Of a stretch of 64,000 nucleotides of DNA, positions 710 to 17,216 are shown piece after piece (position 1 is the stretch's first letter; every line of letters begins with the position of its first letter). Location of the stretch: NCBI GenBank assembly GCA_026400535.1, contig JAPLOU010000019.1, positions 1-64,000 of the forward strand. Reading direction: 5' to 3'. A program made the translations under genes and the position numbers. This DNA comes from Hyphomicrobiales bacterium (lineage in GTDB: Bacteria > Pseudomonadota > Alphaproteobacteria > Rhizobiales > Beijerinckiaceae). Below the pieces are notes generated by a model. The model searched no databases, had not been told where the DNA came from, and saw only the letters and a program-made list of their open reading frames with translations.

Positions 710-2148
710 GTGGGCTTGCGGTCGCGCTGACGGGCTTTGCCGTCATGCTGGGGCTGATCGCGCTGCGCGCGCCGATCGGCCTGTCGATGCTGCTCGTCGG
801 CGCGGTTGGCTACAGCCATCTGGCCAGCTTCAACGCCTTCTTCTCCTACATGAAAACGAACGCCTACCACCAATTCGCCAACTATACGCTGTCGGTCATC
901 CCGCTCTTCATCCTGATGGGGGCGCTGGCCGAGCGGGCCGGGATTGCGCGGGCCCTGTTCAAGGCCTCCGAGGCCCTGTTCGAGCGCTTGCGTGGCGGTC
1001 GCGCCATGGCTGTGATCGGGGCCTGCACGGCGTTCGGCGCGATTTGCGGCTCGTCAGTGGCGACCACCGCCACCTTCGGGCGCGCGGCGCTGCCGGAACT
1101 GCGCACGTCGGGCTACGATGTTGGCTTCGCCACCGGCACGATTGCGGTTGGTGGCACGCTCGGCATCCTCATTCCGCCCTCGGTGATCCTCGTGGTCTAT
1201 GCCATCACGACCGAGCAGAACATCGCCAAGCTGTTCCAGGCAGCGCTGATTCCCGGCCTGATGGCGGCGGCCTTCTATTGCATCACCATCGCCATCATGG
1301 TCAGGCGCAATCCGGCGCTGGCGCCGCTGTCCATACCCGTGATCGTCGAGAAAGACCCGCAGCCGCGCTGGCCCAAGCTCATCGCGGGCCTTGTTCTGGC
1401 CGCGGCGGCCATCCAGTGGGGCAGGGGTGCGCTCGACTGGAAGGATGCGCTGATGGTTGCAGCGCTGGCAGGTCTGGTTGCGGTCATCGATGTGGCGGTG
1501 ATGCCCGCCATCCTGGTTGCCATCGTCGTCGTTGGCGGCATCTATGGCGGCATCGTCACACCGACGGAAGGCGCGGCGGTCGGCGCCATCGCCATGCTGC
1601 TGATCGGCCTCGGCCAGCGGTCGCTGAGCGGAAAGGACATTCGCGATGCCCTGCGCCAGACGGCGGAAACCTCCGGCATGATCTTCATCATCCTGCTCGG
1701 AGCCGAGGTCTTCGGCGCCTTCCTGGCGCTCTCGCGCCTGCCGACGATCGCGGCCGAGATGGTCGGAGGCTCAGGACTTTCGCCCTACATGGTGCTGGTC
1801 GCCATGCTGGCCTTCTACATCCTGCTCGGCGCGGTGATGGACGAACTGGCCATGATCCTGCTCACCTTGCCGGTGTTCTTCCCTGTCATCCAGGGGCTGG
1901 AGTTCGGTATGCCGGCGGACGAGGTGGCCATCTGGTTCGGCATCCTGGTGCTGATCGTGGTTGGCATCGGGCTGACCGCGCCTCCCATCGGCCTCAACGT
2001 CTTCGTCATCAACGCGATGGCGCGCGATGTACCGATCACCGACACCTATCGCGGCGTACTGCCTTTCATAGCAGCCGACATCATCCGTCTCGTGCTTGTG
2101 GTAGCGCTGCCGGGCCTCAGCCTCTGGCTGGTGCGCTTCCTCAACTAG
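706..2148 (+). CDS. dctM: TRAP transporter large permease (DctM family)
   Basis: Main transport subunit of the TRAP system. The 480-residue product is almost entirely hydrophobic and carries family signatures: GSSVATTATFGRAALPE near residue 110, GTLGILIPPSVILVVYAI near 150, TEGAAVGA near 290 and GLTAPPIGLNVFVI near 425. Most DctM proteins have about 425-440 residues. The extra length lies in the middle, around residues 210-275, and looks like added membrane segments, as in the longer large-permease subfamilies. Start: ATG at 706, overlapping the dctQ stop. pobA follows after only 18 bases, so all three genes are likely co-transcribed. Confidence 0.95.
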   Translation: MSGLAVALTGFAVMLGLIALRAPIGLSMLLVGAVGYSHLASFNAFFSYMKTNAYHQFANYTLSVIPLFILMGALAERAGIARALFKASEALFERLRGGRAMAVIGACTAFGAICGSSVATTATFGRAALPELRTSGYDVGFATGTIAVGGTLGILIPPSVILVVYAITTEQNIAKLFQAALIPGLMAAAFYCITIAIMVRRNPALAPLSIPVIVEKDPQPRWPKLIAGLVLAAAAIQWGRGALDWKDALMVAALAGLVAVIDVAVMPAILVAIVVVGGIYGGIVTPTEGAAVGAIAMLLIGLGQRSLSGKDIRDALRQTAETSGMIFIILLGAEVFGAFLALSRLPTIAAEMVGGSGLSPYMVLVAMLAFYILLGAVMDELAMILLTLPVFFPVIQGLEFGMPADEVAIWFGILVLIVVGIGLTAPPIGLNVFVINAMARDVPITDTYRGVLPFIAADIIRLVLVVALPGLSLWLVRFLN

Positions 2149-3342
<1,194 letters not shown>

Positions 3343-3729
3343 GCCTGTGGCTGATCTGGCTTGGCACGAACCCGATGCCGACCGATCCTGGTCGCAAGAC
3401 CCGCTTCACCGGCTTTGACCGTTGCGGAAACGGTGAGCGCGGCGACGGGCTTTTCCGTTTCGCGACAAACAACCCCCCTGCGCCGTCCCAGGCGGAGGCG
3501 CCGCATATCAACATCATCGTCACGATGCGTGGTCTGCTGATTCACAGCTTCGCCCGCGCCTCTCTTGACGCAAAAGCGGGCAATGCCACTGAGCCGGTGA
3601 TGGCGCAGGTTCCGCCGGAGCGGCGGGGTACGCTGCCGGCGCGTCAGACACCCCCCGGCAGATGGGGCCTTGACATTCACATGCAAGGCGCGATGCCAAA
3701 ACCGTTTTCTTCGATCCGTGAGGCCTGCC
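3343..3729. other. 387-bp stretch without a supported gene
   Basis: Between pobA and the BKACE gene. Open frames on both strands show no recognisable motif and no ribosome site. I see no terminator with a T-run. It may hold the promoter of the downstream gene, but no convincing -35/-10 pair is visible. Confidence 0.5.
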
Positions 3730-4584
3730 ATGAACGCTCCTGCGAACAATTCCTGCATTATCTGCGTCGCCATCACGGGTTCGCTGCCGACCAAGGCCAA
3801 CAATCCCGCGGTGCCGATCACGATAGCAGAGCAGATCGAGTCGACCCACGAGGCCTTCGAGGCGGGCGCCTCGATCGCGCATTGTCATGTGCGCGATGAT
3901 GAGGGCAAAGGCACACTTGATCCCGAACGTTTCGCCCGGCTGAAGGAAGGGCTGGAGAAGCACTGCCCCGGGCTCATCATCCAGCTCTCGACCGGCGGCC
4001 GTGCAGGCTCGGGCCAGGCGCGCGGCGGCATGCTATCGCTCAGGCCCGACATGGCCTCGCTCAGTGTCGGCTCGGTGAACTTTCCCACCCGCGTCTATGA
4101 CAATGCGCCCGAACTGGTGGACTGGCTGGCCAGCGAGATGGTCACCCATGACATCAAGCCGGAGATCGAGGCTTTCGATCTGTCGCATATCGTTCAGGCG
4201 GCGATGATGGCAGCTGACGGCCGGATCAAGGGCAGGCTCTATGTCCAGTTCGTCATGGGCGTGAAAAACGCCATGCCGGCAGACGAGGCCATCTTCGATT
4301 TCTATATCGCGACCTTGAAACGCCTGAGCCCCGATGCGCTCTGGTGCGCCGCCGGGATCGGGCCGGACCAGATCAGGATCAATCAATGGTCCATCGCCAA
4401 GGGCGGCCATACCCGCACCGGCATGGAGGACAATGTCCGGCTTGACCGCGACACACTCGCGCCATCCAACGCCGCGCTGGTCAGGCGCGCGGTCGATCTG
4501 TGCGCGAAGCACGGCAGGCCGGTCGCAACATGGCGACAGGCGCGGCAGTTGCTCGGCTTGCGGATGCCGGCGGTGGCTCAATGA
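3730..4584 (+). CDS. beta-keto acid cleavage enzyme (BKACE, DUF849)
   Basis: Zinc-dependent enzymes of this family cleave a 3-keto acid with acetyl-CoA, giving acetoacetate and a new acyl-CoA; 3-keto-5-aminohexanoate cleavage enzyme is the model. Zinc ligands are visible as HCHVRD near residue 45. Other family signatures are GSVNFPTRVYDN near 120, VQFVMGVKNAMPAD near 180 and GGHTRTGMEDN near 230. The length of 284 residues is normal. Start: ATG at 3730, chosen because similarity begins at once (CIICVAITGSLPTK). The substrate is unknown; the family is diverse, and the neighbours suggest a degradation product of an imported acid. The function class is certain, the reaction is not. Confidence 0.88.
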   Translation: MNAPANNSCIICVAITGSLPTKANNPAVPITIAEQIESTHEAFEAGASIAHCHVRDDEGKGTLDPERFARLKEGLEKHCPGLIIQLSTGGRAGSGQARGGMLSLRPDMASLSVGSVNFPTRVYDNAPELVDWLASEMVTHDIKPEIEAFDLSHIVQAAMMAADGRIKGRLYVQFVMGVKNAMPADEAIFDFYIATLKRLSPDALWCAAGIGPDQIRINQWSIAKGGHTRTGMEDNVRLDRDTLAPSNAALVRRAVDLCAKHGRPVATWRQARQLLGLRMPAVAQ

Positions 4585-5122: not shown

Positions 5123-6172
5123 TCACGCCAGCGGCGTGGGACCCGGATGGTCGGGATGGCCGCCAGCGATCACTTCGAGCGCGCGGATGGCGAAGCGGCG
5201 GGCGAGCGGTGCGACCTTCGCCGCATCCGCTCCCGAGGCATTGCCCTGCCTGGCGCGATCCGCAATGCCCACGAAGATCACCGAAAAGCGAAACAGAGCG
5301 AAAGCCTTGTGGAAGGGCAGGACGTCCGCAGCTGCAGGATTGGCCGCGTGGTAGCGCGCGAGGAACTCGGCTTCGGTCGGCAGGCCCTGTGCGGCAAGGT
5401 CGAGGCCGAGGATGCCACCATACTCTTCGGGGGCAGTGTGCCAGGCCATGGCGCAGAAGCCGACATCCGCCAGTGGATGCCCAAGCGTCGAGAGCTCCCA
5501 ATCGAGTATGGCGATCACGCGCGGCTCAGTCGGGTGGAAAATAACATTCCCCATGCGGTAGTCGCCATGGGCGAGGCTCACCGCACCATCATCGGGCGGC
5601 AGGTTGTCCGCGAGCCAGCCGGCAAGTTCATCAAGCTCGGTGATCGGATCGCTCGCGCTCTCTTGCCATTGGCGCGCCCAGCGCGAGAGCTGACGCTCGA
5701 AGTAACTGCCGGGCCGGCCATAGTCGCCAAGGCCCACAGCATCGGGCCGCACCCGGTGCAGGTGCCCCAGAGCATCGGCAAGGCCCATCCACACGGCGTG
5801 CCGCTCGTGCGTCGGAACCTCGGGCAAGGCTCCCTCGGAGAAGACGCGGCCCTCGACACGTTCCATCAGATAAAAGGGTGTGCCGACGATCTGTGGCGCG
5901 TCATGGAAGAGCACGGGGCGCGGCACGGGCAGGCCAGCGGGGTGGAGTGCCGATAGCACGCGATGCTCACGGTCGATGGCATGCGCGCCCTTGAGAAGCG
6001 GGCCGCTCGGCTGCTTGCGCAGCACCATCCGCCGCCTGCCATGGGTGACGAAATAGGTGGGGTTCGATTGCCCGCCGGCAATCCGTTCGAGGCGATAGTG
6101 ATCCGCCGGGCCAAAGCGCGCATCGAGGAAGGCACGCAAGGGGGCATCATCGAAATCGGCGGATATCACCAT
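5123..6172 (-). CDS. APH-fold kinase, LvaA/ACAD10-type phosphotransferase
   Basis: Aminoglycoside-phosphotransferase-fold kinase of the subgroup linked to acyl-CoA dehydrogenases. It shows GGQSNPTYF at 33-41, a Lys in VLRKQPSG, the catalytic loop HGDYRMGN at 202-209 (Asp204) and the metal-binding LDWE at 223-226. Characterised relatives (LvaA in levulinate breakdown, the kinase domain of ACAD10/11) phosphorylate the 4-hydroxyl of 4-hydroxyacyl-CoA, so that the partner dehydrogenase can eliminate phosphate. That reaction is inferred here from family and neighbours. Start: ATG at 6172, with GAGGGG about 8 bases before it and 11 bases after the acyl-CoA dehydrogenase stop. Length 349 residues. 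Last intact gene of the operon. Confidence 0.88.
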   Translation of the reverse strand: MVISADFDDAPLRAFLDARFGPADHYRLERIAGGQSNPTYFVTHGRRRMVLRKQPSGPLLKGAHAIDREHRVLSALHPAGLPVPRPVLFHDAPQIVGTPFYLMERVEGRVFSEGALPEVPTHERHAVWMGLADALGHLHRVRPDAVGLGDYGRPGSYFERQLSRWARQWQESASDPITELDELAGWLADNLPPDDGAVSLAHGDYRMGNVIFHPTEPRVIAILDWELSTLGHPLADVGFCAMAWHTAPEEYGGILGLDLAAQGLPTEAEFLARYHAANPAAADVLPFHKAFALFRFSVIFVGIADRARQGNASGADAAKVAPLARRFAIRALEVIAGGHPDHPGPTPLA

Positions 6173-6183
6173 GTGTGCGCCCC

Positions 6184-7389
6184 TCAGGTGCCGACCGGCC
6201 ACTGCCAGAAATCGCTGCCCTCGGCCTCGAGGTTGCGGTTGAGCACCATCTTGTGCACGTCATCGGCGCCATCCACCAGCCGCGCCTGCCGTGCATAGCG
6301 GTAGATCCATTCGAGCGGCGTATCCTTCGAGTAACCACGCGCGCCGTTGATCTGGATGGCGGTATCCGCCGCCTTGTGCAGCACATTCGCAACATGAACC
6401 TTCGCCATGGAAACCTCCTTGCGGGCGAAGCCGCCGCGATCGAGTTCCCAGGCCGCCTTCATCACCAGCAGGCGACCGATCTCGATCTGCATCGCAAGAT
6501 CACCAAGCATCATCTGGATGCTTTCGCGCTTGGCAAGCCGCTCACCGAACGCGAAACGATCTTCTGCATAAGCGCGCGCGATCTCGACACAGCGTTTCGA
6601 AAGGCCCAGCCAGCGCATGCAATGGGTGAGGCGCGCGGGACCGAGGCGGATCTGGGTCAGCTTCAGCCCGTCGCCCTCGGTCATCAGCAAGTCCGAGACC
6701 GGGATTTCGAGGCCGTCGAACACCAGTTCGCAGTGCCCGCCATGCTCCTCCGGCCCCATGATGGGGATGCGGCGCTCGATGCGCCAACCCGGTGCGCTGC
6801 GATCGAAGAGAAAGGCGGACAGCCCCTTGCGCGGATCATCCGAGGTGCGCGCCATCAGGATGAAGTGCTGCGCATCCTGTGCGCCGGTGATGTACCATTT
6901 GCGGCCTTCGATGACGTAACGATCACCAGTCCGCCTCGCCGTTGTAAGCATCATCGAGGGGTCGGAGCCAGAGCCGGGATGCGGCTCGGTCATCGCGAAG
7001 GCGGACCGCACCTTGCCCGCCACGATGGGTGCGAGCCATCGCTCCTTCTGCGCCGGCGTCGCGACCTTCTCCAATACCATCATGTTGCCGTCATCGGGTG
7101 CGGCGGAGTTGAAGACGACGGGCCCGAAGATCGAGCGGTTCATCGCCTCGTAGCAGACGGCCATGCCCACCTTGCCGAGGCCCTGCCCGCCGCTCTCGGG
7201 CGCCAGTTGCAGGCACCAGAGCCCCTCGGCGCGCGCGCGGGCGCGGAGGGGTTCGAGAACCTCCGGGCGGATGTTGTCATGCGCATCGTAATGCGAGCGA
7301 TCCGCCTCCAGCGGCAGCACCTGTGCCGCAACAAAGCGCTCGATCCGCTGCCGGAAATCCTCGATGCGGGGGGAAACGGAGAAATCCAT
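6184..7389 (-). CDS. acyl-CoA dehydrogenase, ACAD10/11-like
   Basis: FAD-dependent acyl-CoA dehydrogenase fold, 401 residues. The sequence favours the ACAD10/11/LvaC subgroup: SAAPDDGNMMVLEKV near 105, AFAMTEPHPGSGSDP near 138, GGHCELVFDGLEIP near 225, RLGPARLTHCMRWLGL near 255 and LVDGADDVHK near 380. The last motif carries Asp-Gly where classic short- and medium-chain enzymes have the Glu-Gly catalytic base, which is typical of this subgroup. Characterised relatives act on 4-phosphoacyl-CoA made by the adjacent kinase, giving a product that re-enters beta-oxidation. AGGA precedes the ATG by about 8 bases. Only 9 bases separate it from the SDR stop. Electrons could pass to the EtfAB encoded at 15.5-17.2 kb. 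Confidence 0.9.
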   Translation of the reverse strand: MDFSVSPRIEDFRQRIERFVAAQVLPLEADRSHYDAHDNIRPEVLEPLRARARAEGLWCLQLAPESGGQGLGKVGMAVCYEAMNRSIFGPVVFNSAAPDDGNMMVLEKVATPAQKERWLAPIVAGKVRSAFAMTEPHPGSGSDPSMMLTTARRTGDRYVIEGRKWYITGAQDAQHFILMARTSDDPRKGLSAFLFDRSAPGWRIERRIPIMGPEEHGGHCELVFDGLEIPVSDLLMTEGDGLKLTQIRLGPARLTHCMRWLGLSKRCVEIARAYAEDRFAFGERLAKRESIQMMLGDLAMQIEIGRLLVMKAAWELDRGGFARKEVSMAKVHVANVLHKAADTAIQINGARGYSKDTPLEWIYRYARQARLVDGADDVHKMVLNRNLEAEGSDFWQWPVGT

Positions 7390-7398
7390 GCTGTTTTC

Positions 7399-8151
7399 CT
7401 AGAGTGAAGAGACGAGGTGGCCGCCGTCGACAACAATTTCGGTGCCGGTCATGAACGCAGCAGCGTCAGAAGCCAGCAGCAGCAGCGGCCCGTCGAGATC
7501 GGCCATCCGGCCGAGTCGGCGCTGGGGAATGCGGGCGATCAGCGCCTGACCCGCCGGGGTGGCGAAGAAATCGCGGTTCAGATCCGTTTCGATATAGCCT
7601 GGACACAGCGCATTGACGCGGATCTTGTGGCGCGCCCATTCGAGCGCGAGGCTACGCGTCAACTGCACCACGCCTGCTTTCGCCGTGGCGTAGGCCGCGA
7701 CATTGCCCGCAACGCGAAGCCCGAGGATCGAGGCGATGTTGATGATCGACCCTGCGCGATCCTCCGCGAGCATCCGAGCGGCCGTGGCCTGCGCCACGCG
7801 GAACACGCCTGTAAGGTCGGTATCGATCACGCGGGCCCAATCCGCTGCGGAGGTGGTCAGCGCCTTGCCGTCATGCGTCACGCCGGCATTGTTGATGACG
7901 ATGTCGAAGGCGCCCCTGCCGCAGGTTGCGACGATGGAGGCAGCGTCGGTCACATCAAGTTGAGCAGTCTCGACCACGCCGCCCGCCTGCCGGATGGCGC
8001 TTGCCACCTCCTCCAGCATCGCCCCGCGCCGCGCCGCGATGGTCACTGCAGCGCCGGCACCCGCCAGCACTTCGGCAAAATGCCGCCCGAGGCCGGAGGA
8101 CGCGCCTGTCACAAGCGCCGTCTTCCCCGCAAGGCTGAAAGGGTCGATCAT
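7399..8151 (-). CDS. SDR-family NAD(P)-dependent oxidoreductase
   Basis: Classical short-chain dehydrogenase/reductase, 250 residues. It has TGASSGLG near residue 15, NNAG near 87, the catalytic Ser in NIASILG, Tyr and Lys in YATAKAG near 153, and VNALCPGYIETDL. The sequence is FabG-like and does not reveal the substrate. In the lva pathway an SDR (LvaD) reduces 4-ketovaleryl-CoA to 4-hydroxyvaleryl-CoA, and this gene would fill the same step. Oxidation of a hydroxy acid is also possible. It lies between the ThDP enzyme (20-base gap) and the dehydrogenase (9-base gap) in one operon. Confidence 0.9.
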   Translation of the reverse strand: MIDPFSLAGKTALVTGASSGLGRHFAEVLAGAGAAVTIAARRGAMLEEVASAIRQAGGVVETAQLDVTDAASIVATCGRGAFDIVINNAGVTHDGKALTTSAADWARVIDTDLTGVFRVAQATAARMLAEDRAGSIINIASILGLRVAGNVAAYATAKAGVVQLTRSLALEWARHKIRVNALCPGYIETDLNRDFFATPAGQALIARIPQRRLGRMADLDGPLLLLASDAAAFMTGTEIVVDGGHLVSSL

Positions 8152-8171
8152 GGCCTGGCCTTTCGTTCGCC

Positions 8172-9905
8172 TCAGATGTGCCCGCGCCGGCGACGTTCGG
8201 CATCATCCCATGCCGTCAGCGCCTGGTAATCCGGGACGAAGCCTAAGCCTTTTTCCGCATCCGAGGATACCGCGTTCTGGGAGGTGACGACATCGATCAC
8301 GGCCGGCGCGTTGGCAAGTGCGCGCAAAATCGCGGCTTCGAGATCCTCCGGGTTCTCAACCCGCTCGCCATGGGCGCCAAGCGCGCGGGCCATCGCGGCA
8401 TAATCTGAATGGCGCAGTGTGGTGCCGACGACGCGGCCGCCATAATTGAACTGCTGATCGAAACGCTCGATGTTCCACGCGGCGTTGTTTGAGATGATGA
8501 ACACGGCCTTGGCGCCATGGCGCACGGCGGTGTCCACCTCCATCGCGTTGATGCCATAAGCGCCATCACCGGTGATCGTGATGACCTGCCGCCCAGGAAA
8601 AGCGAGGGCCGCCGCCACAGCGTAGGGCACGCCGACGCCGAGGCAGCCAAAGGCGCCCGCATCGAGATAGGTGGAGGCGGCAAGGCCCACGCGGGCGAAG
8701 CTCAGAAGGTCGCCGCCATCGGCGATGGCGATGTAGTCCGGTGCGGCCACCTTTCTGATGGCGTCGAAGATCGCCATCGGGTGGACCTTGCCGTCGCTGC
8801 CGCGCTGCGGACCCTGAAACGCCTCGCCCTTGGCGATGCGGGCGCGATGCTTGGCCTTCAGCGCTTGTGCCCAGCCGCTGTCTTTGTCGCCAGGGTCATC
8901 GCCAAGTCCTTTGGTCAACGCGTCGAGCGCAAGGTCGACCGAAGCAAGGATTTCCGGCGCACCCCGGCGATTGTCCACGAGTTCGCCGGCGGTATCCGCG
9001 ATGCGCAGGAACCGCGCCTGCGGGAACACGGCAGGCGAGCCGAAGCCGAGCTGGTAATCGAGCTTGCGCCCGAGCGTGATGACAAGATCGGCATCACTCA
9101 TCGCGGCGGCACGCACCGCGCCCACGACCGACGGGTGTTCGGCCGGCAGGAGGCCGCGGCTCTCCTGCGTGTCGAGATAGAGCGCGCCCGTTGCGTCGAG
9201 GAAGCGCCGGATCGCGTCGCCCGCGCCCTTCGCCCCACGCCCGCTGACGACGAGCATGCGCTTTGCCGCGCGGATCGCCGCAACCCCATCTGCAATCGCA
9301 TCGGGCTGCGGGCTCGGACGGCGGAGGGGCTTGCGGGTGATCCAGTCCTGCGGAATGAGGTTCTCGGCCACGCGCGTGCGCAGCACATCGGTCGGGATTT
9401 CGATATAGGAGGGGCCCGGCTCGCCAAGGTCGCCGAAGGCGCGGGCGATGGCCTCGTCGAGTTCGCGGATGACCTGATCGGCCACCCGCGCCGTGCGGGA
9501 GTAGCGGCAGAGCGGCTTCAGGATATCAACATGCGGGATGTCCTGCAGCGGGCCCATGTTGGCCTGCGGGCGCGCGGTGCAACCGCCGATCAGCAAAACC
9601 GGCATGCGGGCGAGCGAGGCATTCGCCATGGCCGTCACGCAGTTCGTAACACCCGGACCAGCCGTGACCATTGCCACGCCCAACGTGCCGGTGAGCTCCG
9701 CATGGGCCTGCGCCATGTGCACAGCCGCGCCCTCGTCGCGCACGTCGATGATCCGGATTCCCTGCCGCGCGAGATGATCCCAGATCGGCTGGATATGCCC
9801 GCCCTGAAGCCCGAAAATGCGATCGGTGCCGCGCTCCTTCAGAACGAAACCGATCCACGCGGCGACAGTATCGGTGTCCGTGTTGAGGTCCTGCTGGATG
9901 GTCAT
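8172..9905 (-). CDS. ThDP-dependent enzyme, acetolactate synthase-like
   Basis: Thiamine-diphosphate enzyme of the acetolactate synthase/pyruvate oxidase superfamily, 577 residues in three domains. The N-terminal PYR domain has the cofactor-activating Glu58 in [11 protein letters not shown]. The middle domain has [11 protein letters not shown]. The C-terminal PP domain has the metal-binding [15 protein letters not shown] with NNAAWNIE. No regulatory small subunit is nearby, and the operon is catabolic, so a biosynthetic IlvB role is unlikely. Related enzymes are 2-hydroxyacyl-CoA lyases, glyoxylate carboligase and benzoylformate decarboxylase. A C-C lyase or ligase acting on a CoA-linked or branched acid is an inference. 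Start: ATG at 9905 with GGAG 6 bases before it. There is no counterpart in the described lva operon. Confidence 0.85.
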
Positions 9906-9930
9906 GTGAGTTCTCCGCAAATGAGGGGCA

Positions 9931-11487
9931 TCAGGCCTTGCGGGCCGCAAGCATCTCGCGCAGCACGCGGTGCAGGATCTTGCCGGTGGTGTTGCGTGGC
10001 ATCTCCTCGGTCGACAGGAAGGTGATGGCGCGCGGGCGCTTGAAGCCGGCGAGCTTATCGCGGCTCCAGTCGATCAGGCTTTCAGCCGTGGCGGTCGCGC
10101 CGTCGCGCAGCACGATGGCTGCCTCGACCTGCTCTCCCCATTTGACGTGCGGCGTACCGACCACCGCGATATCCTTCACCAACGGGTGCCGGCCGAGAAC
10201 CGCCTCCACCTCGGTGGGATAGACGTTCTCGCCGCCGGTGATGATCATGTTCTTCTTGCGGTCGATGAGCCGGATGAAGCCTTCGGGATCGCGCATCGCC
10301 ATGTCGCCAACCGTCAGGTAATCGCCCCGGAAGGCCCCGGCCGTCTTGTCCGGCAAGTTCCAGTAGCCCGAGAAGCCATAGGGCCCGCAGGAATGGAGTT
10401 CGCCCACCTCTCCATCGGGTACCTCCCTGCCCTGTTCGTCGAGCAGCTTGATTGGCGCAGAGCCGATGACCTCGCGGCCAACCGTGCCGAGATGATTGAA
10501 CTGCTCATGCGGGTGCAGCATCGTCACCCAACCGGCTTCCGTGGAGCCATAAAGTTCGAACAGCCCGGAATTGGGGAACATCTCCATCACCGCGCGCTTG
10601 GTCTCGACCCGCGCCGGGGCGGAGGAGATCATCAGCTTGCTTACGCGTTCGAAGCCGGCATCGCCGCGTTCCGTTGCCGGAACGTCGAGCAGCATGATGT
10701 AATGCGTCGGCGTGAGCGAGGTGAAGCTGATGCCGAACGAGCCCATGGTGCGCAGGCAAAGGGCGGCATCGAAGGTCGGACGCGAGAACACCGTGACTGC
10801 CGCACCTGCATTGACGAAGGACGTGAAGAAGTTCAGCGAGTTCGCATGGCACATGGGCATGACGAGAAGTGCATCATCGCCTCTGCCAAGGCCAAGCTCG
10901 ACGCTTGTCATCAGCGCAAGCATTGCCATATCGCGATGATTGCGGATCGCCCCCTTGGGCTTGCCTGTGGTGCCCGAGGTATACATGAGGCACCAGGCAT
11001 CATCCGCCTCGACCGTGGCTTCCGGTTCCTGCGGGGAGCCGGTGGCAATCAGAGCCTCGTAATCTGTCCAGCCCGGCTTCGTCCCGCCGATCAGCATGAA
11101 GCGCCCGCCCTGAACACCCAGCTCCCCCCGGATCGCTTCAATGATCGGCAGCAGCGCGGCCTCGGCGATGACCGCGGAAACAGAGCAGTCCGTACAGATG
11201 AATTGCACGTCCGGCGCGGTGAGGCGGAAGTTGATAGGCACCGCGATCAGCCCCGTCTTGGCCATGGCGGCGTAGATCTCCGCCCATTCCACCCGGTTAT
11301 AGGCGAGCACCGCCACCCGGTCACCCTTGCGAAGACCGAGGGCGAGCAGGGCATTTCCAAGCCTGCAGGCCCGCTCGTTCCAGCCATGGAACGTCACGGC
11401 ACGCTCAAGATCGCGCGCGCCGATCCGCTCCGGCTGGATTCGCGCCTGCGTCTTCAGCACATCTCCGATATGCATCGGCGCCTTCAT
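9931..11487 (-). CDS. AMP-forming acyl-CoA synthetase
   Basis: Acyl-adenylate-forming ligase that activates a carboxylic acid with ATP and CoA, 518 residues. The P-loop [13 protein letters not shown] is near residue 170, the A5 motif LYGSTEAGW near 310, and [13 protein letters not shown] plus [10 protein letters not shown] near 380. [12 protein letters not shown] follows, and the C-terminal lysine lies in NTTGKIL, so the enzyme looks complete and active. GGAGG lies 6 bases before the ATG at 11487. The start overlaps the regulator stop as ATGA. As first enzyme of the operon it probably loads the substrate acid onto CoA (LvaE-like role). Chain length cannot be read from the sequence. Confidence 0.92.
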
Positions 11488-12173
11488 GCCGTCCTCCCGT
11501 CTGATCTGTTTGCCAGAGCCTTTCCGAGCCTCACTGCTGCGGTGAGGCAATGGTCAATGGCTCTTTGCGATGCGGTCTCGGCGTCCCCGTCGATCACCGC
11601 CTCGAGGATTTCAGCGTGCTGTCGCCAGATCGTCTGGGGCGTCTGGGCATGGCGCAAGACCTGGCTCATGGCGCGGCGTAGGAAGCGCCAATGCGGCTCG
11701 GCCGAAGCTGCGAGCAGGGGGTTCTGCGAGGCATCGTAGATGAGGCGGTGAAACGCCGTGTCATGTCGTACCTGTGCGGCCATGTCGCCAGCGGCCACGG
11801 CAGCGCTTCCCGCCCGCAGGATTGCCTCACCGGCGGCCCTGAGCCCGCTCGTACCCGATTTCACGGCCACGGCGGCAAGCTGCGCCGCGAGCCCGTCTAG
11901 CGCCGCACGGATATCGTAGTGATGGCGCATCAGATCGAGATTGAGCGGCGTGACCTGAAGGCCACGCCGGCCAACCTCGGCCAGAACGCCATCGGCCTTC
12001 AGCAGCGCCATCGCCTGCTGGACGGGCTGGCGCGAGACATCGAGCCGCGCGGCGATCTGCTCCTGCACGAGGTGCGTCCCCGCCTCGATTGCACCATTGC
12101 AGATGTCATCGAGGATAGCTTCATAGACGCGATCGGTCAGGCTGGACCGGACAGATAAAGGCAGCATGGGCAA
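11484..12173 (-). CDS. GntR-family transcriptional regulator (FCD domain)
   Basis: 229 residues. The N-terminal winged helix (about 8-75) has EQIAARLDVSRQPVQQAM, and the all-helical FCD ligand domain (about 85-215) has RHDTAFHRLIYDAS and RQHAEILEAVIDGDAE. FCD regulators usually sense an acid or acyl-CoA, with a metal held by Asp and His residues such as those visible here (RHDTAFH, QHAEIL). It is the first gene of the six-gene operon and is translationally coupled to the acyl-CoA synthetase, so it probably represses its own operon. A later ATG two codons on (12167) is an alternative start. A repeated GAATTC array lies directly upstream. Confidence 0.92.
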   Translation of the reverse strand: MPMLPLSVRSSLTDRVYEAILDDICNGAIEAGTHLVQEQIAARLDVSRQPVQQAMALLKADGVLAEVGRRGLQVTPLNLDLMRHHYDIRAALDGLAAQLAAVAVKSGTSGLRAAGEAILRAGSAAVAAGDMAAQVRHDTAFHRLIYDASQNPLLAASAEPHWRFLRRAMSQVLRHAQTPQTIWRQHAEILEAVIDGDAETASQRAIDHCLTAAVRLGKALANRSDGRTA

Positions 12174-12175
12174 TC

Positions 12176-12210
12176 TGTATTGGAATTCCGAATTCTGAAT
12201 TCAATAGCAG
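12176..12210 (-). promoter_or_regulatory. candidate operator for the GntR-type regulator
   Basis: Three GAATTC hexamers start at 12183, 12190 and 12197, a 7-base period. They are flanked by ATTG on the left and CAAT on the right, giving an imperfect inverted repeat with arms CTGTATTGGAATTC and GAATTCAATAGCAG. The array starts 3-10 bases upstream of the regulator start. That position fits autoregulation of the operon. The link to the regulator is inference. Confidence 0.55.
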
Positions 12211-12339
12211 TTGGACCGGAAACGTCAAGGATGCTGGATTTCCGTCATGCACGGGATGATCGATCGGTCTGGAGAAGGTGCGTTCAGTGGGGGCAACAGC
12301 CTGACTTGTTGGGAGCATCCCTCAGTGAGGCAATACGCG

Positions 12340-12621
12340 TTCTCAACTTGATCGTCACGGGACAGGAAGGTCGTCGCATCAGAAAACGCTTTGGTGATCT
12401 TGGCGAGCTCGCGATGTTGGCTGGGATTAGTGCCCAAGGCCAACAATGGGATATGCCCCAAAGGCCAACTTCTTCTGCGTTCCCTGCGAATCTCGACAGG
12501 CGAGACGCCACAATTTCGATCCGGTCGGCGTAATTGAGAACTGCAGCCCGCCACCATCGGACAGTTTGATGATCTTCTCGCCCTTATTGGCCTTTCTGAT
12601 CTGCATATCGGTGAGCGCCAT
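12340..12621 (-). pseudogene. P4-type tyrosine integrase, N-terminal remnant
   Basis: The 64 codons from 12621 read as the N-terminal arm-binding domain (DUF4102) of a P4-like integrase: MALTDMQIRKANKGEK, LSDGGGLQFSITPTGSKLW and KKLAFGAYPIVGLG. A frameshift follows; a second frame continues with GTNPSQHRELAKITKAFSDATTF, similar to the next part of the family. The catalytic domain is missing altogether. The remnant lies about 200 bases beyond the 3' end of tRNA-Leu and reads away from it, the usual position of an island integrase. It marks a lost genomic island. Confidence 0.75.
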
Positions 12622-12623
12622 GT

Positions 12624-12710
12624 TTGGGCTTCCGTTTTGGCCTTTTGTTGGCCTTCAGGTATTGGCTTTCGCCAGAAGCCATCGATATGGCCAACACTTC
12701 TGTTGGCTTC
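12624..12710. repeat. TTGGC direct and inverted repeats next to integrase remnant
   Basis: TTGGC occurs at 12637, 12648, 12662 and 12703, with an inverted GCCAA at 12690 and a variant TTGGGC at 12624. The cluster lies between the integrase start and tRNA-Leu. Integrases of this type bind short repeated arm sites in exactly such a place, so these may be remains of the attachment region. No duplicated tRNA end (attR) was found by eye. Confidence 0.35.
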
Positions 12711-12818
12711 AAGCGCATGACGATGGACACAAAAGGACGTCTATGGACATTTACTCTCTGAGTTTTCTTTGATTTTCAAACACTTGCGGACGCTCTTGGA
12801 CGTCAACGGAAGGTGATG

Positions 12819-12903
12819 TGGTGCCCCTAGCCGGAATCGAACCAGCACTCCTTGCGGAATCCGATTTTGAGTCGGACGCGTCTACCAGTTCCGCCATAGG
12901 GGC
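12819..12903 (-). tRNA. tRNA-Leu (anticodon CAA)
   Basis: 85 bases including an encoded CCA. The acceptor stem GCCCCTA pairs with TAGGGGC. The anticodon stem TCCGA/TCGGA holds the loop CTCAAAA with anticodon CAA. A long variable arm follows, and the T loop is GGTTCGATTCC. The long variable arm and CAA give leucine (UUG codon). Its 3' end was probably the integration site of the lost element whose integrase remnant lies downstream. Confidence 0.95.
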
Positions 12904-13023
12904 ACGCGCCTTGCGTGTAGCGGCAGAAGGCACGGCCGGTCAATGGGCTCTGTTCAAGCATTGTCCAGACCGTGACTGGTCAATATCCGGCCGCATTGCC
13001 ATGGTGCGGGGTTGCGGGGAGCC

Positions 13024-13345
13024 ATGCTGAAAACGTTGTACAACTGGATGCTGCGGCTTGGAGCCAGCCGCCGCGCGCCGGCTGCCATGGTCGGCATTTC
13101 GTTCGCGGAAAGCTCGTTCTTCCCCAGCCCACCCGATGTGATGCTGGCGCCGATGGTCCTTGAAGAGCCAAGGCGGGCCTGTTCCTACGTCACCATCTGC
13201 GCAGGTTGCGTCGGTCCCGGGCAGGCTCCTGAACCGCTTCAGCGGCCCGATCCACCGCATTTCGGATCAGCATCTGAGGCGCATCGCGATTGTGATCGGC
13301 ATCGCCCTTGGGGGCGGGCTTGTTGCGGTCAGATGGCTCTTCTGA
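13024..13345 (+). pseudogene. YqaA/DedA-family membrane protein, internally deleted
   Basis: The N-terminus is clear (LYNWMLRLGASRRAP, SFAESSFFPSPPDVMLAPMV), as in small DedA-type YqaA proteins. After about 50 residues the frame runs into unrelated sequence. In the next plus frame a C-terminal piece reappears (RLLNRFSGPIH, then a hydrophobic segment ending at 13345). Intact proteins have about 190-200 residues; here the central membrane part is missing and the frame is broken. Hyphomicrobiales often carry this gene just before dsbB, as here, which supports both the identity and its recent loss. Confidence 0.7.
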
Positions 13346-13374
13346 ATCGCGGGCACATCCGCTAGACCCTCGAC

Positions 13375-13902
13375 ATGAACGCTTCGTCCGGCCAAACCCC
13401 GCTGGAAAGGCTGCTGGCCGCTCCGCTGAGCGTCGGCCTCCTGACGCTCGCCTCCGCGTCCCTGCTGGCCGGGGCGTGGTACTTCCAACTCGTTCTCGGC
13501 CTTTTGCCGTGCAAGCTGTGCCTCGAACAGCGCTGGCCGCACTACATCGCCCTCGTCCTCGGGCTGGTGGCCTTGGCTGCCAGCCTTGCAGGCCATGCCT
13601 CACGGCTCAGGCCGGTGCTTGCCCTGTTGACCCTGATCTTCGCGGTCTCGGCGCTGATGGGGGCTTACCATGCCGGCGTCGAATGGCGCTGGTTTGCCGG
13701 GCCGTCCGATTGCGGCGGGGCGGCTCCGGCCGCGGCCGGCTCGATGCAGGACTTCATGAGGCAGCTGCAGACCACCCGCGTGGTCAGCTGCACCGAAGCG
13801 GCATGGCGCTTCCTCGGATTGTCGCTTGCAGGCTGGAATGCCATCATTTCATTGGGCTTGGCCGGGTTTGCGGCGCTCGCGGTCACGCGTCGGCCGTCCT
13901 GA
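13375..13902 (+). CDS. dsbB: disulfide bond formation protein B
   Basis: Inner-membrane quinone reductase that re-oxidises the periplasmic oxidase DsbA. The 175 residues form four membrane segments. The first redox pair is PCKLC near residue 46, in the family motif CKLCLEQRWPHY. The second periplasmic loop holds Cys in SDCGG near 113 and VVSCTEA near 138. No dsbA is nearby in this window. Start: ATG at 13375; similarity begins within about 15 residues of it. Confidence 0.93.
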   Translation: MNASSGQTPLERLLAAPLSVGLLTLASASLLAGAWYFQLVLGLLPCKLCLEQRWPHYIALVLGLVALAASLAGHASRLRPVLALLTLIFAVSALMGAYHAGVEWRWFAGPSDCGGAAPAAAGSMQDFMRQLQTTRVVSCTEAAWRFLGLSLAGWNAIISLGLAGFAALAVTRRPS

Positions 13903-13908
13903 AGCGGC

Positions 13909-14478
13909 TTACGGCTCCAGTTCGCTGTCCCAATACAGATAGTCCATCCAGCTTTCGTGGAGGAAGTTGGGCGGAAAATGTTTCCCAGCCCGGTGCAGGT
14001 CGTTGACCGTCGGCGCGTAGGGCTTCTGCAGCGGAAACATCTCCGCGTCCTTCGGTAGCTTGTCGCCCTTGCGCAGATTGCACGGCGAACAGGCGGCGAC
14101 GACATTCTCCCAGGTGGTCAACCCGCCCTTGGAGCGGGGGATCACGTGGTCGAAGGTCAATTCCTCGCGGGCGGTGCAGTACTGGCAGCTGAAGCGATCG
14201 CGCAGGAACACGTTGAACCGGGTGAAAGCCGGATGCCGCGACGGCTTCACATAGGTCTTAAGGCAGACCACGGAGGGCAGGCGGAACGAGAAACTCGGCG
14301 ATCGCACCACACGGTCGTATTCGGACACGATGTTGACACGGTCCATGAACACCGCCTTCAGCGTGTCCTGCCAGCACCAGAGCGAAAGAGGGTAATAGCT
14401 CAAAGGCCGGAAGTCGGCATTGAGCACCAAAGCCGGGCAGGCGTCCGGCGAGACCACGGGTGGTACGTGCACAGTCAA
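13909..14478 (-). CDS. HNH endonuclease family protein
   Basis: 189 residues with a complete zinc-binding HNH core: CQYC near residue 98, LTFDHVIPRSKGG, TTWENVVAACSPCN and RKGDK. The N-terminal part (CPALVLNADFRPLSYYPLS) and the tail (WMDYLYWDSELEP) are typical of a conserved chromosomal group found across Alphaproteobacteria, not tied to phages or introns. The role is unknown; it is thought to be a house gene and not a selfish nuclease. It converges with dsbB with only 6 bases between the stops. Confidence 0.88.
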   Translation of the reverse strand: MTVHVPPVVSPDACPALVLNADFRPLSYYPLSLWCWQDTLKAVFMDRVNIVSEYDRVVRSPSFSFRLPSVVCLKTYVKPSRHPAFTRFNVFLRDRFSCQYCTAREELTFDHVIPRSKGGLTTWENVVAACSPCNLRKGDKLPKDAEMFPLQKPYAPTVNDLHRAGKHFPPNFLHESWMDYLYWDSELEP

Positions 14479-14599
14479 CGCACGTCACTCCAACTGTCTT
14501 CCACGGGAATCACCAGCGATCCCATGCAGCGACAAATGTAGGCTGAAGATGACAGCGTTGTGAAGAGACCCGGCCAGACACCCTGCGGCCGGGCCGTCA

Positions 14600-15481
14600 T
14601 CACCGGGTCGGAACGGGCTTTTCCCCGCGATAGTCGTAAAAGCCGCGTTTGGTCTTGCGCCCGAGCCAGCCCGCCTCGACATATTTTACCAGAAGCGGAC
14701 ACGGCCGGTACTTTGAATCGGCCAGCCCATCATGCAGCACCTGCATCACCGAAAGGCAGGTGTCGAGACCAATGAAGTCGGCAAGCTGCAGCGGCCCCAT
14801 CGGATGGTTTGCGCCGAGCTTCATGGCCGTGTCGATCGATTCGACCGAGCCGACGCCTTCGTAGAGCGTGTAAACGGCTTCGTTGATCATCGGCAGAAGG
14901 ATGCGGTTGACGATGAAGGCCGGGAAGTCCTCGGACACCGTCGAGGTCTTGCCCAGCCGTGCAATCAGCCCACGCGCGGCCTCGAAGGTCGCGTCCTCTG
15001 TGGCAATGCCGCGGATCAGTTCGACCAGTTGCATCACCGGAACCGGATTCATGAAATGAATGCCGATGAACTTCTCCGGCCGGTTCGTCGCCGCCGCCAG
15101 CCGCGTGATCGAAATCGACGATGTGTTGGTGGCGAGCAGGGTTTCCGGCGGCAGCGACCGGCACAGGGTGACGAAGATGTTGCGCTTGATGTCCTCGTTC
15201 TCGGTGGCGGCCTCGATCACCAGATCGCAGCCTGAGAGATCCTCGAACGCCTTGGCTGAGGAGATTCGCCCCAGCGCAGCATGGCGGACCTCATCGGTCA
15301 TCGCGCCCTTGGCCACCTGACGGGCCATGTTGCCGTTGATCGTGGCAAGCGCACCGTTGATCCGCTCCTCGCTCATGTCGTTGAGGCGCACGCTGAGGCC
15401 GGCAGCCGCGCAGACATGGGCGATGCCGTTGCCCATCTGGCCCGCGCCGACGATGCCGATGGTGTTGATGATCACGCTCAT
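14600..15481 (-). CDS. 3-hydroxybutyryl-CoA dehydrogenase
   Basis: Oxidises or reduces C4 3-hydroxyacyl-CoA with NAD(P) in butyrate/polyhydroxybutyrate metabolism. The 293 residues show the Rossmann motif GAGQMGNG at 12-19, the catalytic His in GIHFMNPVPVM near 140, and VSEDFPAFIVNRILLPM. The C-terminal domain has GANHPMGPLQLADFIGLD. The length fits the single-function Hbd/PaaH type. It lies 44 bases after etfA in the same direction, so the three genes probably form one unit, as often in Hyphomicrobiales. Start: ATG at 15481. Confidence 0.93.
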   Translation of the reverse strand: MSVIINTIGIVGAGQMGNGIAHVCAAAGLSVRLNDMSEERINGALATINGNMARQVAKGAMTDEVRHAALGRISSAKAFEDLSGCDLVIEAATENEDIKRNIFVTLCRSLPPETLLATNTSSISITRLAAATNRPEKFIGIHFMNPVPVMQLVELIRGIATEDATFEAARGLIARLGKTSTVSEDFPAFIVNRILLPMINEAVYTLYEGVGSVESIDTAMKLGANHPMGPLQLADFIGLDTCLSVMQVLHDGLADSKYRPCPLLVKYVEAGWLGRKTKRGFYDYRGEKPVPTR

Positions 15482-15525
15482 GCGAAAGCCCGTTGATCCT
15501 TGCCCATGCTGAACACGCGTGTCCC

Positions 15526-16470
15526 TCAGCGTCCGATTTTCGTGAGTTCGGCCTGAAGCTCCGGCAGGACGGTGAACAGGTCACCCACCAGTCCATAATC
15601 CGCGACCTGGAAAATCGGTGCTTCCTCGTCCTTGTTGATCGCGACGATCACCTTGGAGTCCTTCATGCCAGCCAGATGCTGAATGGCGCCTGAAATCCCC
15701 ACCGCGACATAAAGTTCGGGCGCGACAACCTTGCCTGTCTGCCCGACCTGCCAGTCATTCGGCGCGTAGCCCGCATCGACAGCCGCACGGCTCGCCCCCA
15801 TCGCCGCACCGAGCTTGTCGGCAACCGGCTCGATGATCTTGCTGAAGTTCTCGGCCGATCCCAGCGCCCGCCCGCCCGACACGATGATCCTGGCCGAGGC
15901 CAGTTCGGGCCGGTCCGATGTCGCGACCTCCTCGCCCTTGAAGCTGGACAGGCCCGGATCGGTTGTCATGCCGACCGCCTCGACCTCAGCAGAGCCGGTC
16001 ATGCCCGCAGGCTGGAAGGAGGCGGTACGGATGGTCATGACCTTCCTGGAATCCGTCGACTGCACGGTCTGGATGGCATTGCCGGCATAGATCGGGCGCT
16101 CGAACGTGTCCGGCGACAGGATCTTCATGACATCGGAGATGACCTGCACGTCGAGCAGGGCGGCGATGCGCGGGGTCACGTTCTTGCCGTTGGCGGTCGA
16201 GGCCGCCACCACATTGGTGTAGCCGGCGGCGAGCGACGCCACCAGCGCGGCGGTCGCCTCGGCCAGCATGTGGCTGAACACGGGCGCGTCGGCCAGCAGC
16301 ACCTTGGCGACACCATCAAGCTTGGCCGCCGAACCGGCGGCGGCCTTGCAGCCGTCTCCGACGACCAGCACGTGCACGGGTACTCCGAGCGCCTTGGCGG
16401 CGGTCAGGGCCTTGGCGGTCGCGTCCTTGATGGTGGACCCGTCATGTTCGGCGATCAGCAGCGTCGACAT
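15526..16470 (-). CDS. etfA: electron transfer flavoprotein alpha subunit
   Basis: FAD-binding subunit of the ETF that collects electrons from acyl-CoA dehydrogenases and passes them to ETF:quinone oxidoreductase. The 314 residues have the C-terminal FAD domain with VSGGRALGSAENF near 200, GASRAAVDAGYAPNDWQVGQ near 230, and YVAVGISGAIQHLAGM. The start ATG at 16470 overlaps the etfB stop by one base (TGATG); GTG at 16473 is a weaker alternative. A likely electron acceptor for the dehydrogenase at 6.2-7.4 kb. Confidence 0.96.
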   Translation of the reverse strand: MSTLLIAEHDGSTIKDATAKALTAAKALGVPVHVLVVGDGCKAAAGSAAKLDGVAKVLLADAPVFSHMLAEATAALVASLAAGYTNVVAASTANGKNVTPRIAALLDVQVISDVMKILSPDTFERPIYAGNAIQTVQSTDSRKVMTIRTASFQPAGMTGSAEVEAVGMTTDPGLSSFKGEEVATSDRPELASARIIVSGGRALGSAENFSKIIEPVADKLGAAMGASRAAVDAGYAPNDWQVGQTGKVVAPELYVAVGISGAIQHLAGMKDSKVIVAINKDEEAPIFQVADYGLVGDLFTVLPELQAELTKIGR

Positions 16471-17216
16471 CACAGCACCCCTGCGGTCTTGAGCTTTAAC
16501 ACAAGGTCAGCGGCAGACGCGACCTTGATCCCCGACGAGCGTATCGGCGGCTCGGTTGTCTTGATCACCTTGAGGCGCGGGCTGATATCGATCCCAAGCG
16601 CCTCGGGCGAGGTTTCGTCCAGCGGCTTCTTCTTGGCCTTCATGATGTTCGGCAGCGACGCGTAGCGTGGCTCGTTCAGGCGCAGATCGGTGGTCACGAT
16701 GGCGGGCAACTTGAGGCCGACAGTCTGGAGTCCGCCATCGACCTCGCGCGTCACATCGACGGTTCCGTCGCCGACGGACACTTTCGAGGCAAAAGTGCCT
16801 TGCGGCCAGCCCATCAGCGCCGCCAGCATCTGTCCCGTCGCGTTCATATCGTCATCGATCGCCTGCTTGCCCATGATGACCAGGGACGGCTGCTCGGTCG
16901 CGATGATTGACTTCAGCAGCTTGGCCACCGCCAGCGGCTCCACCGTCGCATCCGTCTTCACATGAATGCCGCGGTCGGCACCCATGGCGAGCGCGGTGCG
17001 GATGGTTTCGGCAGACCCGGCCGGGCCGATCGACACCGCCACGATTTCGCTTGCCTTGCCGGCCTCGCGCAGACGCAAGGCCTCCTCGACGGCGATCTCG
17101 TCGAACGGGTTCATCGACATCTTCACATTGGCAAGTTCGACACCCGATCCATCCGGCCTGACGCGGATCTTCACGTTGTAGTCGACCACGCGCTTCACCG
17201 GCACGAGGATTTTCAT
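16470..17216 (-). CDS. etfB: electron transfer flavoprotein beta subunit
   Basis: AMP-binding partner of EtfA. The 248 residues start [19 protein letters not shown] and carry [15 protein letters not shown] near 40, the AMP site region [16 protein letters not shown] near 118, and a C-terminus that embraces EtfA. Start: ATG at 17216, where family similarity begins; the ribosome site is weak (AGG). Coupled to etfA by overlap. Confidence 0.96.

Follow-up and report, generated by a model that had tools for sequence, protein, structure and literature searches.

The window, a 64,000-nucleotide stretch of contig JAPLOU010000019.1 from a Hyphomicrobiales bacterium, carries a six-gene minus-strand operon that is, on balance, probably a GntR-controlled catabolic unit of two joined modules, one predicted to cleave a short 2-hydroxy acid and the other to deoxygenate a 4-hydroxyacyl-CoA by phosphorylation and elimination. 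Short branched 2-hydroxy acids and 4-hydroxy or 4-oxo acids both stall β-oxidation, and two jobs known from separate pathways, one-carbon clipping of 2-hydroxy acids and removal of oxygen from acyl chains, seem to be combined here in one cluster. The comparisons suggest that bacteria, mostly alphaproteobacteria, joined both enzyme systems more than once. From the observed enzyme families, active-site residues, linkage and co-occurrence we infer the substrates, the reaction directions and the connection between the modules, and the operon offers a testable lead toward its natural substrate.

Table 1. Genes of the two-module operon, listed from the first gene
Gene product	Position	Alternative start	Strand	Basis and remarks
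GntR/FCD transcriptional regulator	11484..12167	12173	-	Pfam GntR and FCD; first gene of the operon
AMP-forming acyl-CoA ligase, FadD-like, HACL module	9931..11487	11550	-	Pfam AMP-binding
Predicted ThDP-dependent 2-hydroxyacyl-CoA lyase (HACL), AcHACL type	8172..9905	9950	-	NF058623, 7pt1, pocket residues, AF2 model
SDR oxidoreductase	7399..8151		-	Pfam adh_short_C2; 4-oxoacyl-CoA/4-hydroxyacyl-CoA reductase role presumed, substrate inferred
ACAD-fold enzyme, presumed phospho-lyase	6184..7389		-	Pfam; ACAD10/11 signature residues
APH-fold kinase, ACAD10/11 type, without LvaB-like partner	5123..6172	6202	-	Pfam APH; best structures 3dxp and ACAD11

All six minus-strand open reading frames of the region 5123-12205 were confirmed (Table 1), and they are as tightly packed as the sequence-only reading had described. 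With the shorter starts, every one of which is ATG, the intergenic gaps from GntR to kinase are -4, 25, 20, 9 and 11 bp, the first being a 4-bp overlap of the GntR stop and the ligase start. The set is conserved rather than a product of chance, since the identical order is kept in two loci at 82-94% identity (L001 and L002) and in five more at 55-77% (L004, L011, L012, L014 and L027). The flanking TRAP-PobA-BKACE genes lie on the opposite strand and are retained at 92% identity in L001, with no like identity seen in the other 79 loci; on these two grounds they are excluded from the operon.

The ThDP enzyme is, as judged from family models and a structural model, a predicted lyase of the kind represented by the actinobacterial AcHACL, which cleaves short 2-hydroxyacyl-CoAs to formyl-CoA and a ketone. 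It scores 1050.2 bits against the curated family model NF058623 (cut-off 600), whereas the next-best family gives 345 bits against its own cut-off of 587. The earlier proposal of an additional ThDP enzyme acting on a C-C bond is thereby upheld, but its description as acetolactate-synthase-like must be abandoned: of 53 families, the 25 top-ranked include no acetolactate synthase model that attains its own cut-off (345 bits at most, where 587 would be needed). The nearest structure is 7pt1 (E=5e-217), and structure matches 1-16 of the AF2 model, in which residues 554-563 have pLDDT values below 50, are without exception AcHACL chains, the closest with TM values of 0.92-0.93. Lyases of the HACL1/RuHACL type are rejected, the structures 6xn8 and the 8vz series scoring far behind AcHACL. 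The structure alignment gives 61% identity to AcHACL. In AcHACL numbering, Q41, G43, H44, E65, T88, L127, Q128, I492, E493 and L566 are invariant in 81/81 HACLs (80 loci and the window), and V569 is kept in 80 of the 81. Thus the acid/base Glu493, the cofactor Glu65 and Gln128 are identical throughout, and the C-terminal lid appears intact, with the size-limiting L127 and I492, together with L566 and V569, all found in the window enzyme and a 10-residue lid segment retained. The roles of these pocket residues, which are said to restrict the accepted groups to C4-C5, are given in a part of PMC8760513. All 81 window-type HACLs, including those lacking the SDR-ACAD-kinase module, carry after a one-residue insertion an arginine at AcHACL position 503 that is missing from AcHACL itself. 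AcHACL-type lyases, which are of interest for one-carbon synthesis, are extended to many alphaproteobacteria.

The motifs previously picked out by eye, LVDGADDVH in the ACAD and HGDYRMGN and LDWE in the kinase, are present in the translations. The kinase has an APH fold whose HGDYRxxN and LDWE motifs align with those of 3dxp and ACAD11, and the upstream Arg, HCMR motif and catalytic Asp of the ACAD align with those of ACAD11 (QIRLGPARLTHCMRW and RLVDGADDVH); the roles of these three elements are described in a part of PMC12440821. The pair thus bears the signatures of 4-hydroxyacyl-CoA phosphorylation-elimination that had been ascribed to it, and the Arg, HCMR and Asp are kept in every window-clade row listed, even without a nearby kinase. 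The expectation that both proteins group with ACAD10/11 held, as regards ACAD11, for the kinase but not for the ACAD. In the kinase tree a 100/100 split leaves the window kinase together with ACAD11 and 3dxp, outside the DUF6285-linked kinase clade. Despite its signature residues the ACAD is placed by sequence outside the ACAD10/11 clade: it is 37.7% identical to ACAD11 and belongs to a 52-row clade of its own (100/99) beside the ACAD11/4hr3 clade (100/100), on long branches. An ACAD clade with elimination-chemistry signatures is thereby defined, of which we know of no characterised or tested member.

The absence of LvaB, previously held to be unexplained, is no anomaly, since the DNA examined around kinases on the window's side of the tree (kin1-type) contains no DUF6285 neighbour and a P. 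citronellolis lva cluster likewise lacks LvaB. DUF6285, which on size and place may correspond to the 12-kDa LvaB-type partner, has no match in the window's own genome (93.7% complete). A kinase match is present in 17/17 ACAD-clade genomes checked; it adjoins the ACAD in 3 and in some may serve another ACAD. An SDR relative adjoins the ACAD in 26 of 42 ACAD loci (L113-L154), many with just 1.5 kb flanks; flanks of at most 1.5 kb in L125-L154 cannot always show a downstream kinase. By analogy, the window SDR could instead act as a 3-hydroxyacyl-CoA dehydrogenase, the function proposed in a part of PMC7888143 for one enzyme annotated as an SDR in the D. cetonica acetone cluster.

Across the gene neighbourhoods, GntR-ligase-HACL keeps recurring as a core, mostly in alphaproteobacteria. 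In 70 of the 73 loci with enough sequence HACL is immediately preceded by the ligase, whether or not the second module is present, and the operon is for this reason better seen as a ligase-HACL core with an SDR-ACAD-kinase module than as the lva operon with an added ThDP gene that had been proposed. The earlier view that the operon departs from the classic lva pathway is upheld. Where at least 2 kb downstream is available, an ACAD follows HACL in 12/65 loci, usually with an SDR, and HACL stands without the second module in the other 53. A kinase accompanies the HACL-linked ACAD in 11 of the 12, the contig of L008 ending before the kinase position. Two HACL-ACAD-kinase architectures with different kinase families occur, the window type without an LvaB-like protein and another with a DUF6285 protein, and they lie on opposite sides of a quick HACL tree with many weak forks. 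The simplest account is that two or more separate events joined the module to the HACL core, and that the kinase family differed between them. In L069 the DUF6285 score is just under the cut-off (27.8 against 28.1), and NCBIfam models of a PQQ-associated ABC system match below their cut-offs.

The ACAD clade is found in 13/20 genomes with HACL and 40/365 without (Fisher p 6e-8), in one 385-genome sample and by a test that ignores shared ancestry; in a sample of the window's own order the association is weak (4/7 against 34/143; p 0.07, same test and same caveat). The clade occurs more often than HACL, and for the most part away from it. In a set of 32 genomes, 21 hold the clade, with 22 matches between them.

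In the proposed mechanism, the ligase would convert a short 2-hydroxy acid to its CoA ester; 2-hydroxyisobutyrate or one of its C5 homologues is the likeliest candidate. ThDP would attack the thioester carbonyl, the hydroxyl proton would pass to Glu480 (577-residue form; AcHACL E493), and breakage of the C1-C2 bond would yield a ketone (acetone or butanone) and formyl-CoA. In the second module the SDR would reduce a 4-oxoacyl-CoA to the 4-hydroxyacyl-CoA and the kinase would phosphorylate the 4-hydroxyl; the ACAD-fold enzyme would then remove the α proton, lend a hydride to FAD, expel phosphate and take the hydride back, giving a 2-enoyl-CoA for β-oxidation. A ketone and formyl-CoA are not obvious substrates for these steps. 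The likeliest arrangement, to which we give about an even chance, is that the modules serve in parallel two acids from one source, such as oxidised branched or isoprenoid compounds that would give a tertiary 2-hydroxy acid and a γ-oxo acid. Pantoate is rejected as a substrate on its quaternary β carbon and C6 size. The CoA-ester route into the second module is not decided by the ligases, because 13/18 genomes, including the window's own (59%, on contig 31), match the ligase of L119 at roughly 50% or above. The acetone carboxylase γ family gave no match in this genome, in a search that returned no control match either.

The substrate assignment draws on L191 and L192, loci of two genomes, where HACL, GntR, HcmB, an HCL-like ligase, MeaB and HcmA lie on one strand and ACAD-kinase-DUF6285 on the other; the L192 mutase best matches 4r3u (995 bits), with methylmalonyl-CoA mutase next (443). 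2-Hydroxyisobutyryl-CoA may not carry over to the window enzyme, because these HACLs are 56-58% identical to it and have Cys for Q41 and His or Asn for Arg503. A role of kinase and ACAD as a B12-free substitute for 2-hydroxyisobutyryl-CoA mutase via methacrylyl-CoA is rejected: no γ leaving group would be available, and L191 and L192 have both systems.

A single pathway in series through both modules appears rather unlikely. A 2-hydroxy-2-alkyl dicarboxylic acid, or another 2-hydroxy acid with a far carboxyl or oxygen, would lose C1 as formyl-CoA, and the resulting 4-oxo acid would be re-activated and then pass through SDR, kinase and ACAD to be deoxygenated; levulinate, for example, would arise from the C1-CoA ester of 2-hydroxy-2-methylglutarate. 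Such an α-cleavage followed by phosphate elimination would be an undescribed pathway, its formyl-CoA feeding C1 metabolism. The 4-oxo acid that the second module should require, the six genes in one tight operon and the company of CitF-, fumarase- and HpcH-like genes around HACL in L005 are in its favour, and Arg503, absent from AcHACL and the L191/L192 enzymes, could anchor the carboxylate. However, Arg503 occurs equally in HACLs without the module, the C4-C5-limiting pocket residues are all retained, and the operon has a single ligase. It is decidedly improbable that the operon is a classic lva-type unit for levulinate or 4-hydroxy acids with an incidental neighbour: the kinase and ACAD motifs would suit it, and L119 and L196 have a ligase-SDR-ACAD-kinase-DUF6285 order (with an extra ORF between SDR and ACAD) without an adjacent HACL, but the window ligase, which belongs with HACL, shares about 30% identity with those of L119 and L196, the regulator is GntR, the ACAD lies outside the ACAD10/11 clade, and kinases of two families take part in the recurring linkage to HACL. 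Least credible, and very improbable, is a synthase role in which HACL would join formyl-CoA to a ketone for processing by the other genes; although the reaction is reversible (PMC8760513, in part), ketone formylation has been proposed for acetone activation in the sulfate reducer D. cetonica (PMC7888143, in part) and HACL accompanies the mutase set in L191 and L192, a dedicated ligase before HACL suggests activation of an acid rather than its formation, a tertiary 2-hydroxyl should not be removable by kinase/ACAD chemistry, and the window's own genome has a best 2-hydroxyisobutyryl-CoA mutase match of just 41%.

The two-module operon resembles several known systems in part. With the lyase-HCL cluster of Actinomycetospora chiangmaiensis, which acts on 2-hydroxyisobutyrate (PMC7176365), it has in common GntR, a CoA ligase and an AcHACL-type lyase with the same pocket residues (61% identity); however, HCL has 465 residues and the FadD-like window ligase 518, and the lyase is followed there by alcohol/aldehyde dehydrogenase genes instead of SDR-ACAD-kinase, the words phosphotransferase and acyl-CoA dehydrogenase being absent from the main text of that paper. 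By description, the Pseudomonas putida lva operon shares the general kinds of ligase, SDR, kinase and ACAD-fold enzyme, whereas the window has GntR in place of LvaR, no LvaB-like protein and an added HACL. Its kinase type and ACAD clade also differ, LvaC being placed near ACAD10 and ACAD11 by its 62% and 56% identity to them (PMC11342911). The window kinase is of the family found in animal ACAD10/ACAD11 and their bacterial orthologues, and the window ACAD has in common with them the catalytic Asp, the HCMR motif and the upstream Arg, but there kinase and ACAD are not separate genes and the ACAD is of the other clade; papers on peroxisomes, by their search entries, name both ACAD11 and 2-hydroxyacyl-CoA lyase. 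Finally, the hcmAB-hcl-meaH cluster of 2-hydroxyisobutyryl-CoA mutase shares the predicted acyl-CoA with the window, and L191 and L192 combine that cluster with HACL and ACAD-kinase-DUF6285.

All six minus-strand ORFs described in the sequence-only reading, and every motif it quoted, are found in the window, with intergenic gaps of -4 to 25 bp (taking ATG starts) and Pfam matches to a GntR-FCD regulator, an AMP-binding ligase, a three-domain ThDP enzyme, an SDR, an acyl-CoA dehydrogenase (ACAD) and an APH kinase. Its interpretation of the operon as a variant of the levulinate (lva) pathway carrying an acetolactate-synthase-like ThDP enzyme stands in part. Among the best 25 of 53 family matches, the top acetolactate synthase model reaches 345 bits, below its cut-off of 587, and this identity is rejected, whereas NCBIfam NF058623 (2-hydroxyacyl-CoA lyase, HACL) scores 1050 bits against a cut-off of 600. 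The closest PDB sequences are those of the Actinomycetospora chiangmaiensis enzyme, AcHACL (7pt1, E 5e-217; next different enzyme, E 6e-66). Foldseek with an AlphaFold2 model (pLDDT 84.7, 30 sequences) places AcHACL chains in all of the top 16 positions (TM 0.92-0.93, 61% identity), the remaining matches listed having at most 30% identity.

Alignment of AcHACL with the window enzyme and 80 relatives (counts over the 81 sequences other than AcHACL) shows that Q41, G43, H44, E65, T88, L127, Q128, I492, E493 and L566 are invariant and that V569 is kept in 80. The functions of these residues, and the restriction of AcHACL to C4-C5 acyl groups, are described in PMC8760513 and PMC13327070. The position of AcHACL L503 is Arg in 81/81, preceded by a single inserted residue, which is Gly in 79 sequences, Ser in one and Ala in one.

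These relatives are the best 80 of 115 from a genome-collection search, mostly alphaproteobacterial as labelled. The ligase lies immediately upstream of HACL in 70 of the 73 loci having enough upstream sequence, often preceded by a GntR gene, and the genes around this core differ between loci. A TRAP binding protein was verified in Methylobacterium locus L037, its ORF cluster being represented in 11 loci. GMC oxidoreductases occur in L007 and L018 (both checked), and L024, L042 and L069 carry an ABC system resembling one associated with PQQ alcohol dehydrogenase (L069 checked, scores under model cut-offs). In L005 and L031 (see table), HACL may act on citramalate-like acids.

Genomic features of the window and of loci from related genomes (L numbers; kinase2, DUF6285-linked kinase)
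Locus	Coordinates	Strand	Content
Window	5123-12205	minus	six-gene operon
Window	206-4584	plus	beyond the kinase gene: DctQ-DctM TRAP transporter, 4-hydroxybenzoate 3-monooxygenase and BKACE (3-oxoadipate:acetyl-CoA type), grouped; DctM, monooxygenase and BKACE genes also conserved in L001
Window	12822-12903		tRNA
Window	14600-17216		3-hydroxyacyl-CoA dehydrogenase, ETF alpha, presumed ETF beta; a few genes and the tRNA away from the operon
Window	58794-58830		Rfam 'Prion pseudoknot' match (43.4 bits), in all likelihood an artefact of repeats
Window, L001, L002, L004, L008, L011, L012, L014, L027			type I: HACL-SDR-ACAD-kinase
L043			type I without SDR
L024, L042, L069			type II: HACL-ACAD-kinase2-DUF6285-SDR
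L191	6583-17434		HACL and a complete 2-hydroxyisobutyryl-CoA mutase set; ACAD-kinase2-DUF6285 on the opposite strand
L192	8502-19989		as L191 (two genomes of one family)
L005	1975-9776		CitF- and class I fumarase-like genes in a run with HACL and ligase (also L031); HpcH/RipC-like gene and SDR in the L005 run
L120-L123	~8200-14800		SDR-ACAD of the window clade, then an indolepyruvate-ferredoxin-oxidoreductase-type gene (family search: L120 only); kinase-free vicinity
L113-L115	~6500-12900		window-clade ACAD adjoining a PQQ alcohol dehydrogenase gene (family search: L113 only); Methylobacterium genomes with HACL elsewhere

Downstream sequence of 2 kb or more is available for 65 loci; in 12 of them the ACAD comes after HACL, and 11 of these also have the kinase, the contig of L008 stopping ahead of the kinase position. 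In the kinase tree, type I groups with ACAD11 and 3dxp and type II with DUF6285-linked kinases, the two being split at 100/100. Within the set of loci compared, a DUF6285 protein or relative is present at 7/7 kinase2 loci with a window-clade ACAD (the type II loci, L118, L119, L124 and L131); none was found at loci with the window-type kinase within the flanking DNA covered. Types I and II fall in opposite halves of the HACL tree (SH-aLRT 88 and 86), a quick tree whose starred branches do not by themselves force two origins of the linkage. Most simply, the module joined HACL at least twice; a single joining followed by exchange of kinase and gene order is possible.

The ACAD did not follow the expected affiliation: its clade (52 rows) lies apart from the ACAD11 and 4hr3 clade in a tree with flagged long branches. 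Identity to ACAD11 is 37.7% for the window ACAD and 56-57% for two other bacterial ACADs of the same set. The upstream Arg, HCMR and Asp-Gly, which PMC12440821 links to elimination chemistry in ACAD11, are nevertheless kept in every window-clade row among the matches listed. Some window-clade ACADs have no adjoining kinase; a kinase match exists in 17/17 ACAD-clade genomes searched, adjoining the ACAD in 3, and these kinases may serve other ACADs.

Beyond direct linkage, one sample of 385 genomes of the class includes 20 with HACL (E up to 1e-200), 53 with an ACAD of the window clade (E up to 1e-140) and 13 with both; the ACAD clade is thus present in 13/20 HACL genomes versus 40/365 others (Fisher p 6e-8, ignoring relatedness). 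Among 150 genomes of the window's own order the figures are 4/7 versus 34/143 (p 0.07, ignoring relatedness). In 32 HACL genomes hand-picked from the 80, the ACAD clade (at least 62%) is found in 21, in 10 of them through the adjoining module. The three samples overlap and are uncorrected for relatedness.

The best substrate clue is a third linkage of HACL with ACAD and kinase, in L191 and L192, whose HACLs are 56-58% identical to that of the window. Same-strand genes after HACL encode GntR (with an extra ORF ahead of it in L191), a B12-binding protein, a PaaK-like (HCL-like) ligase, MeaB and a mutase large subunit; families were searched in L192 and assigned in L191 through 82-90% identity. 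The L192 mutase matches 2-hydroxyisobutyryl-CoA mutase (4r3u) at 995 bits, the next, methylmalonyl-CoA mutase, reaching 443. The opposing ACAD-kinase2-DUF6285 genes end ~0.25 kb from the mutase gene in L191 and ~1.8 kb from it in L192, with an oxidoreductase in between. Two routes for one acyl-CoA possibly lie side by side here. In these HACLs Cys replaces Q41 and His or Asn replaces Arg503, the ten other listed residues matching, and they may therefore act on another substrate than window-type HACLs do. A mutase search of the window's own genome gave no match better than 41%.

The families, residues and linkage of both modules are the established part of the mechanism. The ligase and HACL would convert a short 2-hydroxy acid to formyl-CoA and a ketone, while reduction, phosphorylation and elimination by the SDR, kinase and ACAD would turn a 4-oxo- or 4-hydroxyacyl-CoA into a 2-enoyl-CoA. 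Since the expected HACL products do not directly feed the second module, parallel use on two acids from one source is favoured. A bolder proposal, ranked below it, has HACL convert a 2-hydroxy-2-alkyl dicarboxylate to a 4-oxo acid that then enters the second module; the clade-specific Arg may favour such series use, but the C4-C5 pocket may count against it.

Judged by titles and abstract beginnings, no account of this gene combination was found in searches for HACL together with an acyl-CoA dehydrogenase and aminoglycoside phosphotransferase, with alphaproteobacteria and 2-hydroxyisobutyrate, with ACAD11, or with levulinate gene clusters (the best 15 of 126 matches), searches outside which most subscription journals lie. 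An actinobacterial lyase cluster is on record (PMC7176365), the words phosphotransferase and acyl-CoA dehydrogenase being absent from its main text, and an lva cluster without LvaB, the small kinase partner whose absence here had seemed anomalous, is reported in PMC6692424. Set beside these, the window operon is a new variant that unites two known enzyme systems.
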